Assembly: GCA_028283655.1 (NCBI GenBank)
Contig: JAPWKE010000003.1
Span: 1,116,001-1,180,000, forward strand
Direction of reading: 5' to 3'
From: Acidobacteriaceae bacterium
GTDB taxonomy: Bacteria; Acidobacteriota; Terriglobia; Terriglobales; Acidobacteriaceae
DNA length: 64,000 nucleotides
Positions within the stretch are counted from its first letter, which is position 1. Each line of letters begins with the position of its first letter. Under the pieces are notes generated by a model. That model was not told the DNA's origin and did no database searches. It saw only the letters and a program-made list of their open reading frames with translations. The position numbers and the translations under genes were made by a program. Positions 18,070 to 64,000 of this stretch are shown piece after piece.

Positions 18070-18579
18070 TTAAGAGCGTGAGCCCTTTTGTGGAAGCAAT
18101 GTTTCAAGCAGAAGCAGGCAGGCACCAATCACGATTGCAGAGTCTGCAATGTTGAAGTCCGGCCAGTGATACGTCCCGATGTGGACCTCAAGAAAGTCCA
18201 CAACATAGGACAAGCGAATGCGGTCGTAGAGATTTCCAACCGCTCCGCCGAGAATCAGCGCCAGCGAGAAGGAGGTAAGCGTAAGCCGCTTGCCCCACAT
18301 CCAGATCAGCACGAACACGACAACACAGGCGATCGCAGAGAACGCTACCAGCATGTTGCGAACCATGGTGGGCGATGCTGACTCGGCAAACATGCTGAAG
18401 GCTGCGCCGAAGTTCAGCACGTGCGTGATGCGGAAGACATGCGGAATGACCGGAATCGCTGAGCCGGGCTTGAGGTGGTGAACCACCCAAAGCTTCGACC
18501 AGCGATCAGCCAGAATGGTCAGTGCGGCAATTAAAAAACAAGCCCAACGCGCATCGCGCAGAGATCCACGAAGCGTCAT
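18070..18579 (-). CDS. lspA: Lipoprotein signal peptidase
   Basis: Inner-membrane aspartyl protease that removes the signal peptide from diacylated prolipoproteins. The 169-residue protein has four hydrophobic segments. The conserved catalytic region is GGAVGNLYDRIRLSYVVDF...FNIADSAI, with the dyad at Asp128 and Asp146. The start codon overlaps the ileS stop as TAATG, so the two are translationally coupled; ileS-lspA adjacency is common in bacteria. Confidence 0.96.
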   Translation of the reverse strand: MTLRGSLRDARWACFLIAALTILADRWSKLWVVHHLKPGSAIPVIPHVFRITHVLNFGAAFSMFAESASPTMVRNMLVAFSAIACVVVFVLIWMWGKRLTLTSFSLALILGGAVGNLYDRIRLSYVVDFLEVHIGTYHWPDFNIADSAIVIGACLLLLETLLPQKGSRS

Positions 18580-46857: not shown

Positions 46858-47931
46858 TTGTCGAACACCCCAGTCAAGCTCGCCACACCGCGTATGTTGC
46901 ACCTCGCGCTGTTTGCGACCGGCCTGCTATGGCTTTTTGCCGCTCATACAGCCGCAGCACATGCCGCTCGCGGCTTCTCCACGCTCCTGTCGCTGCCGCT
47001 GCTGGATCATCTCCTGCGTGCAGTGTTTGAACTGCTACTGCTCCTCGCTGGCTTCACCGCGTTGGAGTGGATCGCGACCCGGCAGGGAAGCCTGAGCCAG
47101 ACAAATGCGTTGCCTTGGCGCGCCACCACCGGGCGAGAGTTCCGACTCGGCTTTGCGTTGGGTTGGGCGATGCTCGTCGCTGTAGCTCTGCTCATCGTCG
47201 TCTTCGGACAGCTTCACTCGCTCTTTTGGTTCGCCGGGCGCGCCTGGATGATCGCAGCCATCGAAATCCTTACGTTGGCGCTCTCCACTCTCGTCGCAGA
47301 GATCGCCTTCCGCGGCTTCCTCTTCCGCGAACTGATCAACGCCGTCGGCGAAGTCGCCGCCATGGTTCTCATGGCGATGATCTATGCCTTAGTCTCGTCT
47401 TTTTCTCCGAACTCGGGAAGCCTCAGCGTCACAGTCGTGTTCATCTTTGGCTTCCTTTATTCCATCGCCTATCTGCGTACCCACGCACTCTGGACAGGCT
47501 GGGGAATCCACTTCGGCTGGACCGTCATGATGGGCGTCTTCTTCGGCCTCCCGATCATGAGTTCCGGCGTCTACTCGAGCGTTGTCTCCAGTGATCTTTC
47601 CGGACCTGCCTGGCTGAACGGTGGCGTCTTCGGCCCGGATGGCTCGACGCTGGCCATCGCTGCGGCTCTGGGTGGCATGGCCGTTCTGTACCAGATGACC
47701 CGTGAGTTCTCCTGGCAGTACACCCATACGCCGATCGTGGCCGGTGGCTACGCGGTAGACCCGCCACCACCAGCGGAGCACCTCGCTCTGGAGCGTTCTG
47801 CATCGTTCTCTTCGCCAGCGGCTCCGGCCTCTCTCATCCAGATCCAGGCCGCCACCTCGCAGACCTCATCCACGGTCGCAGCCATCGACAAGCATTTGCG
47901 TACAGGAAACTCCGAACCTCCTGTCGAATAA
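46858..47931 (+). CDS. CPBP-family intramembrane protease-like protein
   Basis: A 357-residue polytopic membrane protein starting at TTG 46858 behind GGAGTTAAG. The CPBP (Rce1-like) motif 1 reads LVAEIAFRGFLFREL. The usual EExxxR is here AExxxR, so the first glutamate is Ala. Further motifs are YALVSSFSPNSGSL and TGWGIHFGWTVMMGVFFG with a conserved His. The motif change raises doubt about proteolytic activity. The C-terminal ~80 residues are soluble and rich in Ser/Ala/Pro. No processing substrate can be inferred. Confidence 0.7.
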   Translation: MSNTPVKLATPRMLHLALFATGLLWLFAAHTAAAHAARGFSTLLSLPLLDHLLRAVFELLLLLAGFTALEWIATRQGSLSQTNALPWRATTGREFRLGFALGWAMLVAVALLIVVFGQLHSLFWFAGRAWMIAAIEILTLALSTLVAEIAFRGFLFRELINAVGEVAAMVLMAMIYALVSSFSPNSGSLSVTVVFIFGFLYSIAYLRTHALWTGWGIHFGWTVMMGVFFGLPIMSSGVYSSVVSSDLSGPAWLNGGVFGPDGSTLAIAAALGGMAVLYQMTREFSWQYTHTPIVAGGYAVDPPPPAEHLALERSASFSSPAAPASLIQIQAATSQTSSTVAAIDKHLRTGNSEPPVE

Positions 47932-60165: not shown

Positions 60166-62916
60166 TTACTGAACGATTACCTTCACCGTAGAACTCTTCG
60201 TCACAGCCGTTCCATTCACTGTCCCTGTCGCAGCAACGTTAATCGTGTACGTTCCTACAGGCGTCGGTGTGCGGGCAGAGGCGATGGATGTCGGCGTTGT
60301 AGCGGAGTTCGAGCAGCCAGAGCTTCCTACCGTTACGGCAGCGCCGATCGCGACGATTGCAAGCGTGGCCAGCTTTCTTCTGCGTGGTGCAGCGATCAAG
60401 AGAAGGAGCGCGAAGGCCCCTGCGACCAATCCGGTTGCGGCCGTCGCGCTGTGTTGCGAGTCCAAGCCACCGGTAAAGGCGAGCACGGTGAGCGTTGTCG
60501 ACTGAGCCGTTGTGCTTGTGAAGTTCAGTGACGTTGCGCTGAGTGTGAGCTGTCCTGCAAAGGTGGATGTGGAGCTCAGCGTGAAAGCTACATTCCCCGT
60601 GAAGCCTCCGGTTGGAGTTACGGTAAGGACGATCCCTTGAGAGCTATCCCCAGAGGCCACGTTCACGGTAGTCGTTGTGGGTGTGAGGGTAAAGCCCTGC
60701 GTCACGGCTGTGCTTACCGTGAAGGTAAACGCGCCGACGGAGCCAGCATAGGTGCCATCGCCCGCATAGGATGCCTGCATTTTGTGGGTTCCTGCGGCAA
60801 GCCCGGTCGTGCTCAAGCTATACGTTGCCACACCGCTGCTGCTCAGTGTTGCAGAACCCATCACCGTTCCATCGAGAAGGAACTCGACGGTTCCCGTTGG
60901 CGTAGCGGTCGTGGAGGTAAAGACGCTGGTCACCGTTGCAGTGAATGTGACCGCGGAGCCAGTCGTGACGGAAGAGACGTTGCCCGCGATGTCTGTGCGC
61001 GAGCTGGCGGCTCCTGCCGGCGTCGTTGCAGTGGCCGTAACAAGCGGCCAGTCGTTTACCAGGTTGTAGGCGTCGACCGAGCCGAGACCTGAAGCACGGT
61101 CGTATCCGGTAGCCGCGGTGTAGCCGATCGTTCCGCCGCTGGCGCAGTCGGTAGAGCCAGTGGTGCATGTCACGGCATTGCTGCCTGACGTTACGTCATG
61201 GAAGACGCTGGACGCATAGCTGCTGGCCGCCAGCGTGTAGAGCGTGTTGTTGGCAACGCCAACGCGTCCGTTCTTTTGGACGACCATCGCCATGAGCCCG
61301 GAAAATACCGGAACTCCTACGCTTGTCCCGCCGATCACTGCGACCGAGCCAGTGCTGTCGTAGAAGCCGTTTGTGCAGGTGTTCGGAGTGCACAAAAGAT
61401 AAGGGTCGTGATTGGCTGAGGCGCTGAAGGAAACATCCGGAACATCGCGCGTTCCATCATCGGTTATGGCTACGCCAAAGATCGTGCCGGTTTGCCACGA
61501 GGGCTTAGCAAAGTAGCTGCTGGAGCCGCCACCGCCTGCCGTCAGGTTGACGCCGCTGGTCGAGTCATTCCACACGACCTCAGGAATGTACTGCGTGGCG
61601 GAACCGCCGGTGCTTCCGTTCGTCGAACTCCAGTAGGTTCCGGTGCCTTCGCTAAACGTCGTCCCACCTACGCCCGTGACGTAAGGTGAGGACGCGGGAA
61701 AATCGACGGCGAGACCTTGTGTCGCGCTTGTCGCTTTGTAGTCGCAATCAGCCGCACCGGAGTCTCCTGCGGGGGAGACGATCGTGATGCCCTGCGCAGC
61801 TCCCTGCTCCAGCAGTTGGTTGTAATAGGCAAGCTCGCTTACGCCGAGGTCGGCTTCGCAAGTTCCGTAGCTGTTGGAGATGATCGGTGCAACGTTGTTA
61901 TCGATTGCTTCTGTGATTGATCCGTTCAGTACATCGGTGGAGGTTACGAAGAGGACCGAAGCCTTCGGAGCCATCGCTCCTGCCCACTCAAGGTCCAACT
62001 CCGATTCATAGAGATCGTCGGTCGAGGGATAGCCCGGGTCCACGCCATACAACGAGACTGTGGGGGCGTTGGCCGCGAGTCCGGCGGCGGAGCGGAAGGC
62101 TGCGATGTCGGCTGGGTAAATATCCGTCTGCCCAACGACGGCGATGGTCACGCCTGTGCCGTCCGTGCCGGAAGAGATCAGGTTTTGCGCGTCATAAATC
62201 GTGTACAGATCGCCTGGAGCGAGGTAGTGCGTCGCGGATGATGATGTGAACTGCGGTGAAAGCGAACTGCTGCTCGTGGGGGACACGATGCGTCTTACGG
62301 TGCGCGGCCTCAAGGCCAGATCGTCCACCCCTGTAACGGCGGAGGTGATGTTCGATAGAGCTGCAGGCAAAGTCAGCGCCGCAGTGTTGGCGATATGCTC
62401 TTTGCCTTCTACGCTAACGCGTTGGATTTTCGTTTGGAATGCGGCTTGCGCCGTGGCTACCGTTCCCGAAAAACGCACATACTGGCCACCCCGGCCAATA
62501 CTCTTCACGGTGAAGCCCTGTGCCTTCAACCACGCCTGGGCCTTGGCCAGGTCCGCGTCCGCTACGCCGAACTGTGCGCGGAAGGTTTCCGGTGTGAGCC
62601 ACTGGTGATAACGCGCAGAGTGCGGGTTTTGCTGGTCGGCGAGCAGTTGAACAAGCGCCTGGCTTTGGGCATTCGTCATGCTGAAACGCAGGCTCATGTT
62701 TGGCAGCATGTCCTCAGAGGCAGCCGCTCCAAGGACGGTTGCTGAACGTAGACGAGGCGATACGCTTCCGCTTACAACGGAACGTGAACTGTTATCGACA
62801 GCACCGACGCGGACCGCTGGGCCAACCTGTGTGAATGCCGACGGGCAAGCAGAGAGAACGGTTACGACAATTGCCGACAGCACCCACCGTTTACACGTCG
62901 GAACAAGCCCCTGCAT
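60166..62916 (-). CDS. S53 (sedolisin/kumamolisin) protease with Ig-like repeat and C-terminal TM-RRR-TM module
   Basis: About 916 residues from ATG 62916, chosen over 62940 because AGGAAG lies 9 nt upstream. Order: signal peptide; pro-kumamolisin propeptide (MSLRFSMTNAQSQALVQLLADQQ, YHQWLTPETFRAQFG); S53 catalytic domain with ESELD (Glu/Asp), SPAGDSGA (oxyanion Asp) and GGTSVGVP (nucleophile Ser), plus calcium-type GYDRASGLGSVD. One Ig-like beta sandwich follows (TPTGTVEFLLDG...AGTHKMQASYAGDG), then a second beta-rich segment. The last 100 residues are helix-RRRK-helix-GlyCys plus a terminal beta strand. It is a predicted acid serine-carboxyl endopeptidase, exported. Confidence 0.9.
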   Translation of the reverse strand: MQGLVPTCKRWVLSAIVVTVLSACPSAFTQVGPAVRVGAVDNSSRSVVSGSVSPRLRSATVLGAAASEDMLPNMSLRFSMTNAQSQALVQLLADQQNPHSARYHQWLTPETFRAQFGVADADLAKAQAWLKAQGFTVKSIGRGGQYVRFSGTVATAQAAFQTKIQRVSVEGKEHIANTAALTLPAALSNITSAVTGVDDLALRPRTVRRIVSPTSSSSLSPQFTSSSATHYLAPGDLYTIYDAQNLISSGTDGTGVTIAVVGQTDIYPADIAAFRSAAGLAANAPTVSLYGVDPGYPSTDDLYESELDLEWAGAMAPKASVLFVTSTDVLNGSITEAIDNNVAPIISNSYGTCEADLGVSELAYYNQLLEQGAAQGITIVSPAGDSGAADCDYKATSATQGLAVDFPASSPYVTGVGGTTFSEGTGTYWSSTNGSTGGSATQYIPEVVWNDSTSGVNLTAGGGGSSSYFAKPSWQTGTIFGVAITDDGTRDVPDVSFSASANHDPYLLCTPNTCTNGFYDSTGSVAVIGGTSVGVPVFSGLMAMVVQKNGRVGVANNTLYTLAASSYASSVFHDVTSGSNAVTCTTGSTDCASGGTIGYTAATGYDRASGLGSVDAYNLVNDWPLVTATATTPAGAASSRTDIAGNVSSVTTGSAVTFTATVTSVFTSTTATPTGTVEFLLDGTVMGSATLSSSGVATYSLSTTGLAAGTHKMQASYAGDGTYAGSVGAFTFTVSTAVTQGFTLTPTTTTVNVASGDSSQGIVLTVTPTGGFTGNVAFTLSSTSTFAGQLTLSATSLNFTSTTAQSTTLTVLAFTGGLDSQHSATAATGLVAGAFALLLLIAAPRRRKLATLAIVAIGAAVTVGSSGCSNSATTPTSIASARTPTPVGTYTINVAATGTVNGTAVTKSSTVKVIVQ

Positions 62917-63049
62917 CGCCATATGCTTCCTGCAATCCATGATTTTGAAGTCTTACTACGTCTAGACGACGGACAAGGTCCATCGGGTGACGCTGCCACG
63001 AGTCTGGTGAAGAATTCAACTATATCTACAGTCCGGTGGTGTGGGCTGC

Positions 63050-64000
63050 CTACTGAATCGTCACCTGGAAGTAGGCTGTGTGTTTATTAGTGGTGACGCC
63101 ATCTGTTCCCGCAGCGGTGATCGTGAACTGTTGCGCACCGGAAGGTGTTCCTCCGCTGGAAGAAGAGCCGCCGCCGCCCGTAGACGTCTCCGAGCGGACG
63201 GTGGTGCATCCCCCGGTTGTTCCCAGAACGAAGATAGCCATTGCCAATGCTGCGAGCTGAAGCCAGCGAACGCGACGGCGTCGGATGAATCCCAGCAGCA
63301 GAGCGCCAAGCCCGGCCACGCCTGCGAACGCGATATCGCGTCGTCCGCTATGAAGCGCGGCGGTTGCTGCTGTCGTCGTAATCGTCATAGTGGCGACGCC
63401 GCCTCCGCCTGTCAGAACGCTGGGCGAGAAGCTGCAGGTTGTTGCTGTTCCTGCTGGCGGTGTGCAGGCAAGAACAACGCTGCCGGTAAAGCCATATTGC
63501 GGAGCGACGGTAGCGAGTGCGGTTACGGTCTGGCCCTTGGTTGTCGTGGCGCTCGACGGCGAAAACACGACGCTGTAATCCTGGATCGTCACAGCGACCG
63601 CCGTGGCCGTGGATGTGGTGAAGGAGGTGGAACCGGCGAAGACCGCAAGAATCGTATGCGTGCCTGCCTTCAATCCCGTGGTCTGGAAGGACGTGAAGGC
63701 GGAGGACACTCCGCCCTGCGTGAGAGCGGCAGAACCAAGCAGCGTTTGAATGCCGCCGAAGGTGTCGTAGAAGTTCACGGTTCCGGTGGGAATGCCCGGG
63801 CTGGTGTTCGTCGTTGTTGCTACAGAGCTGACCACGACGGTGAAGATCTCGTTCGCACCCTGCAACGCGGTCGTGTAGTTCGGGGTGAGGGTGGACGTCG
63901 TATCTACCGTGGCTGCCGCAATCGTTGCCACCGTGGAGGTGCTGCTGCCGCAGTTCGTATCGCCCGCATACACCGCGTAGACGGTGTTCTTCGTGCTCGA
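63050..64000 (-). CDS. Surface protein with Ig-like repeats and C-terminal TM-RRR-TM module, 5' part outside the window
   Basis: The frame is open through the right edge (no start seen; a GTG at 63973 is internal), so only the C-terminal ~316 residues are visible. They contain the end of one Ig-like repeat (NTVYAVYAGD), a full one (TLTPNYTTALQGANEIFTVVV...GTHTILAVFAGSTSF), a second type of beta domain (DYSVVFSPSSATTTKGQTVTA), then helix-RRRR-helix, GGC, a Gly/Ser-rich linker and a terminal strand ending VTIQ. It is similar in layout to the sedolisin tail, so both probably use the same export or anchoring route. The N-terminal function is unknown. Confidence 0.85.
   Translation of the reverse strand, partial: SSTKNTVYAVYAGDTNCGSSTSTVATIAAATVDTTSTLTPNYTTALQGANEIFTVVVSSVATTTNTSPGIPTGTVNFYDTFGGIQTLLGSAALTQGGVSSAFTSFQTTGLKAGTHTILAVFAGSTSFTTSTATAVAVTIQDYSVVFSPSSATTTKGQTVTALATVAPQYGFTGSVVLACTPPAGTATTCSFSPSVLTGGGGVATMTITTTAATAALHSGRRDIAFAGVAGLGALLLGFIRRRRVRWLQLAALAMAIFVLGTTGGCTTVRSETSTGGGGSSSSGGTPSGAQQFTITAAGTDGVTTNKHTAYFQVTIQ

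Follow-up and report, generated by a model that had tools for sequence, protein, structure and literature searches.

A predicted lipoprotein-like hairpin inside the last Ig-like domain as a probable C-terminal anchor of secreted proteins in Acidobacteriaceae

Results

Two adjacent genes with a common C-terminal tail

The stretch of DNA analysed here (64,000 nucleotides, called the window below) comes from an Acidobacteriaceae bacterium (assembly GCA_028283655.1, contig JAPWKE010000003.1, positions 1,116,001 to 1,180,000) and carries at its end two adjacent genes, one for an S53/sedolisin-like protease and one for a surface protein with immunoglobulin-like (Ig) repeats, whose C-terminal tails are the subject of this work. 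Each tail contains a first putative transmembrane segment (TM1), a short basic loop, a second such segment (TM2) with a Cys directly behind it, and a terminal part with β-strand character (Table 1); the chains end with VKVIVQ (sedolisin) and QVTIQ (Ig-like protein). The succession of helix, RRRK or RRRR, helix, GC and strand had been described in an earlier sequence-only reading, made without database searches, and both tails indeed possess it. That reading knew of no named sorting system for such tails; a named family does exist, namely NF058595 of NCBIfam.

Table 1. Features of the two tails and the lspA gene in the window. Residues are counted in amino acids (aa); A3 and A4 are the alignments described in the text, and pLDDT (predicted local distance difference test) is the per-residue confidence of AlphaFold2.
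Feature	Position in window	Strand	Basis or remark
S53/sedolisin-like protease gene, 924 aa	60166..62940	-	Pro-kumamolisin activation domain, Big_3_5 Ig repeat, interrupted Ig-like tail
Sedolisin, strands A-E of last Ig-like domain (aa 747-822)	60475..60702	-	AlphaFold2 pLDDT 86-97 per ten-residue block, to model residue 80
Sedolisin, TM1 (aa 832-852)	60385..60447	-	Hydrophobicity, limits set by eye
Sedolisin, basic loop RRRK (aa 853-856), predicted cytoplasmic	60373..60384	-	
Sedolisin, TM2 / type II signal h-region (aa 857-875)	60316..60372	-	
Sedolisin, Cys876, predicted lipidation site	60313..60315	-	Context VGSSGC, Ser at -3; sole invariant column of A4 (55 rows)
Sedolisin, strands F-G (aa 896-924), which complete the Ig-like domain	60169..60255	-	pLDDT 97-98 in last three blocks; alignment with solved domains spans the gap
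Surface protein with Ig-like repeats, 3' part of an open frame (1728 aa) that continues beyond the window	63050..64000	-	
Ig-like protein, strands A-E of last Ig-like domain (aa 140-211)	63368..63583	-	
Ig-like protein, TM1 (aa 222-239)	63284..63337	-	Hydrophobicity, limits set by eye
Ig-like protein, basic loop RRRRVRW (aa 240-246; RRRR = 240-243)	63263..63283	-	
Ig-like protein, TM2 / type II signal h-region (aa 247-264)	63209..63262	-	
Ig-like protein, Cys265, predicted lipidation site	63206..63208	-	Context TTGGC, Thr at -3; sole invariant column of A3 (66 rows)
Ig-like protein, strands F-G (aa 288-316)	63053..63139	-	pLDDT 94-97 in last three blocks
lspA (signal peptidase II), predicted processing enzyme, unlinked to the tail genes	18097..18531	-	PF01252, 143.2 bits; G000:C3:1134097-1134531

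The tail belongs to a curated family

In a scan of the whole proteins, the Ig-like protein matched NF058595 (invert_tail, "lipo-invert putative C-terminal anchoring domain"; known here by its name, length and curated cut-off of 37 bits) with 39.5 bits over positions 3-112 of the 113 positions of the model, and the same scan gave no NF058595 row for the sedolisin. When the own genome was searched with the model, the Ig tail (L019) scored 42.7 bits and the sedolisin tail (L030) 30.6 bits (E 1.1e-6, model positions 8-113), i.e., below the cut-off. As the domain is already a curated NCBIfam entry, the two window proteins are new members of a known family, the sedolisin below the cut-off. Compared directly, the two 100-aa tails are 27% identical (BLASTP, E 0.11); this pair is by itself weak evidence, and the evidence from the family goes well beyond chance.

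The own genome yields 57 matches to NF058595 at E<=10 (22 over the cut-off) and at least 35 copies with the full layout. None of 14 control genomes has a match over the cut-off; all 14 have matches at E<=10, so the weakest matches mean little. In a draw of 297 genomes throughout the phylum, 36 had a tail match at E<=1e-8 (31 from the same family, 5 from others; 0/14 controls), and there was no same-family genome without a tail among the matches listed. In a second draw, limited to the family, the tail was found in 58 of 60 genomes. The proposal of the sequence-only reading that this is a conserved C-terminal module is thereby borne out, and the search with the family model shows that the tail is not confined to the pair. 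Copy numbers per genome are lower bounds (14 candidates per genome were scored in the phylum draw, up to 63 in the family draw). A further set of 80 loci from named genomes (L080-L159) is mostly from Acidobacteriota; the tail is also present in records named Rhodanobacteraceae (L100), Ignavibacteria (L128), Ideonella (L130) and Gammaproteobacteria (L132), for which both gene transfer and mis-binning are possible.

A single invariant Cys in a lipobox-like context

The order TM1, basic loop, TM2, Cys is present in all 35 tails of the own genome, in all 29 from elsewhere in the phylum and in 75 of the 80 named-genome loci. The family model served to pick the 64 tails of the first two sets, and the 80 loci were found through patterns of the Ig part. 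No TM-like stretch follows the match in the five loci without the layout (L101, which runs off its locus, L119, L140, L154 and L155). The Cys is the sole invariant column both in A3 (66 selected tails: 64 of the 80 named-genome loci and the two window tails) and in A4 (55 rows, with 53 of the 80). Eleven loci were left out of A3 because their match is uninterrupted, partial or odd (L101, L119, L132, L133, L135, L140, L142, L154, L155, L157, L158), six of which (L132, L133, L135, L142, L157, L158) carry a hairpin and Cys elsewhere in the protein; five more (L093, L095, L105, L138, L141), with hairpin and Cys present, were omitted following no fixed rule. The GC, for which the sequence-only reading had suggested a lipid- or thiol-linked anchor, is the key point of the tail and a likely lipid site.

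The surroundings of this Cys resemble a type II lipoprotein signal. The residue at -1 is Gly, Ala or Ser in all 139 tails (135 distinct); among the distinct ones, -3 is Leu, Ile, Val, Met, Phe or Ala in 79% (Ser in the sedolisin and Thr in the Ig-like protein of the window) and +2 is Gly, Ser or Ala in 90%, with no Asp at +2 in these tails. The last basic residue precedes the Cys by a median of 18 aa, compared with 14-22 aa in ten ordinary lipoproteins. Furthermore, the distribution of charges is of the positive-inside type, with 4.12 Arg or Lys per tail in the 10-aa loop versus 0.56 and 0.66 in the 25-aa outer flanks. The part behind the Cys comprises 32-57 residues in 135/139 tails (full range 32-137, median 42). 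Weak partial matches to NF058595 in the own genome, starting at model positions 32-54, were also inspected by eye: ten of the eleven examined read as ordinary N-terminal lipoprotein signals, and one (L074) as a type I signal (20 regions were examined; the start codons of L068 and L079 are provisional). The tail shares with type II signals a basic n-region, a hydrophobic h-region, a small residue before the invariant Cys and Gly or Ser after it; it differs in lying near the C terminus, behind an additional TM helix, and not at the N terminus, where such a signal is normally located.

The hairpin probably interrupts an Ig-like domain

AlphaFold2 models of both tails have two confident parts. For the sedolisin, block means of pLDDT are 86-97 over residues 1-80, fall to 49-69 from residue 81 to 140 and reach 97-98 in the last three blocks, where strands 150-162 and 165-177 lie; for the Ig-like protein, they are 87-98 up to residue 80, then 48-77, and 94-97 in the last three blocks. 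The two parts are predicted to form one Ig-like domain, with the hairpin inserted between its strands E and F. What the sequence-only reading took for a terminal β-strand is really the final pair of strands, F and G, in the interrupted domain. Near-contiguous solved domains align with the predicted models across the hairpin (VIA-align), the best being residues 594-700 of Vpr (8jmw; Z 12.3, root-mean-square deviation 2.0, 103 residues aligned) and residues 404-502 of the sialidase of M. viridifaciens (2ber; Z 12.2, root-mean-square deviation 1.9, 95 residues aligned). These domains (8jmw and 2ber/1eut) have the same fold across both parts, but no membrane insertion in the aligned range, and their sequence identity is 10-22%. 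As many further Ig-like chains reach Z 10-11, the alignments show the fold and no closer kinship.

The second line of evidence comes from sister copies. With a profile made from the 66 tails after deletion of the hairpin, 28 of the 115 proteins searched gave matches, to a total of 52 uninterrupted domains. Of these, 45 domains, spread over 25 proteins, span the model from position 20 or earlier to position 95 or later of 102. The best of these matches is the C-terminal domain of L140 (independent E-value 4.5e-27), and 20 proteins hold both interrupted and uninterrupted forms.

In three proteins, the part behind the Cys is longer, at 130-137 residues. L133 has an entire additional domain between the Cys and strands F-G, and F-G are still at the very end; L060 appears to have the same arrangement when judged by eye; in L026, the insertion is between F and G. 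The retention of F-G at the end of L133 and L060 suggests that completion of the Ig fold is what matters in the tail. Since the sedolisin tail has the same anatomy and the same AlphaFold2 fold as that of its neighbour, we suppose that it works like NF058595, although the cut-off does not file it there.

Cargo, export and lipoprotein machinery

An N-terminal type I (Sec) signal was recognized in 30 of the 35 own tail proteins by a loose pattern, and the other five look similar by eye; the N-terminal VLSAC of the sedolisin is an ambiguous signal. L014 (= L173) is a frame of 224 aa that shows no N-terminal signal and may be a broken or split gene. Among the 19 of the 35 proteins scanned with Pfam, the cargo includes pro-kumamolisin proteases, GH28, alginate lyase, NHL and FG-GAP repeats, lamin-tail domains, and Big_3_5 and He_PIG Ig repeats. 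As for lipoprotein biogenesis, the own genome has two matches for Lgt (G000:C3:1233491-1234258 and G000:C2:152324-153025) and a LolC/E-like protein just under its cut-off (346.7 versus 362.45 bits). The only lspA match of the genome happens to share the window with the tails at a distance of ~42 kb, which implies no linkage.

Discussion

The anatomy of the tail can be read as that of a C-terminal anchor of the NF058595 type, in which a TM hairpin with an internal type II signal sits within the last Ig-like domain, in its E-F loop; we give this reading a probability of about 0.6. The protein would be exported by Sec through its N-terminal signal, TM1 would stop the transfer, and the Arg cluster would remain in the cytoplasm. 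TM2 would then re-enter the membrane like the signal peptide of a lipoprotein, bringing the [GAS]-Cys to the outer face of the inner membrane, where Lgt could add diacylglycerol to the Cys and LspA may cut in front of it. Strands F-G, located past the Cys and an often Gly/Ser-rich linker, would pair with strands A-E and complete the Ig sandwich, so that the cargo would stay anchored even if the chain were nicked. Export and insertion of the hairpin with the Arg loop inside would follow from the anatomy. What the data show directly are the layout, the constancy of the Cys, its lipobox-like profile and, through prediction and the sister copies, the interruption of the Ig-like domain; the topology, the final membrane, lipidation and cleavage are inferred. 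The individual steps are not equally firm: anchoring is likely, lipidation of the Cys is plausible, and cleavage by LspA may follow. It is thus probable that the tails keep both window proteins attached to the cell envelope, in line with anchoring, one of the jobs that the sequence-only reading had suggested beside sorting and cleavage.

Several observations weigh against this proposal. The procedure used to find the Cys requires a Cys, which weakens the counts over the 139 tails as evidence of invariance; the independent evidence consists of A3 and A4 and of the finding that the five Cys-less loci of the 80 also have no TM-like stretch. A relaxed lipobox fits 116 of the 139 tails and a strict one only 59, and the lipoboxes of the window proteins are weak at -3, where the Ser of the sedolisin fails even the relaxed pattern and the Ig-like protein has Thr. 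Cleavage by LspA at an internal signal that lies behind a further TM helix is, as far as we know, unproven. The hairpin itself is modelled with low confidence (block means 48-77 over both tails), the Ig-like fold is generic (384 of the 983 chains compared in the search that gave 8jmw reach Z 8), and Foldseek alone gave a best E of 3e-4.

One alternative is a plain membrane anchor: the two TM segments would keep the protein in the inner membrane, F-G would complete the Ig domain on the outer side, and the Cys would carry no lipid and not be a cleavage site. The hairpin alone would be sufficient for anchoring, the charge of the loop agrees with it, and neither the weak -3 positions of the window proteins nor the lack of a precedent for LspA at such a site would be a difficulty. 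However, a plain anchor leaves unexplained why the Cys is the sole invariant residue, why -1 is always Gly, Ala or Ser, and why TM2 with its Cys matches ordinary lipoprotein signals; we regard it as rather unlikely.

We consider it improbable that the tail is a sorting signal of the CTERM type, cut at TM1 by an exosortase, rhomboid or CPBP-type enzyme, with TM2 and the Cys serving only for retention. TM1 with its Arg cluster is similar to what we take to be the usual CTERM signals, and the own genome has matches for two exosortases, two rhomboids and three CPBP proteins; moreover, in genome G257 a gene for an exosortase/archaeosortase-like protein (L203, 3672-4709) is located ~500 bases downstream of a tail gene. 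Nevertheless, a protein similar to this neighbour is found in only one of the 60 family genomes, its own, and neither A3 nor A4 has an invariant residue in or before TM1. An exosortase as a requirement, in the sense of the co-occurring sortase-like enzyme that the sequence-only reading had envisaged, was rejected: 35 of the 60 family genomes have an exosortase match (E<=1e-5), and 23 of the 25 without one still have tails (judged by eye; some genomes are incomplete). Rhomboid and CPBP matches, searched for in the own genome and the controls, occur in 14/14 and 11/14 control genomes as well, so their presence says little. A CPBP (Rce1-like) family membrane protease match of 41.3 bits is also present in the window (47266-47529, plus strand). 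With tails present where exosortase is absent, and with no residue of TM1 invariant, we see no support for a dedicated sortase, although a rhomboid or CPBP enzyme may still act here. CTERM and sortase signals also differ in design, as theirs consist of a single TM helix followed by a basic C terminus, whereas the tail has two hydrophobic segments and continues for a median of 42 residues past the Cys. A close parallel is MYXO-CTERM of the myxosortase system, which is described as a C-terminal module of surface proteins with an invariant Cys, a TM helix and an Arg cluster and is predicted to be lipidated (PMC11980579). The tail resembles this module in these three elements, but its Cys follows TM2 in a lipobox-like context.

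That the Cys forms a disulfide or has a structural role at the membrane edge is very improbable: many tails do have other Cys residues in the Ig part, but none of these is invariant in A3 or A4, and the small residue at -1 and the Gly or Ser at +2 fit a lipobox better.

Within the lipoprotein-type anchor, a more specific version can be put forward only tentatively. Cleavage by LspA might liberate the last 30-60 residues as a mini-lipoprotein, whose strands F-G would hold the large chain non-covalently, by analogy with a built-in donor-strand complement. If TM1 were cut as well, the hairpin would be lost altogether, and the complex could move to the outer membrane or to the cell surface. Fission of a tail gene into a TM1 protein and a mini-lipoprotein was not clearly seen in any case among the matches listed, although frames shorter than 230 aa do occur.

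In the open-licence PMC literature, judged from its listings, we found no paper on the name NF058595 or on this tail, and we have not met the split-Ig version in this form in the literature searched. Besides the two tails, what is added here to the curated domain is the interruption of the Ig-like domain, the existence of uninterrupted sister copies and the idea that the chain may be nicked; the curators may already hold these views. A domain for which no paper was found is thereby given a testable mechanism. If the proposed mechanism is true, dozens of secreted proteins per genome (at least 35 here), including proteases and sugar-cleaving enzymes, would be held to the cell by their tails, and a lipoprotein signal could sit inside an Ig domain, which would widen the range of positions in which such signals occur.

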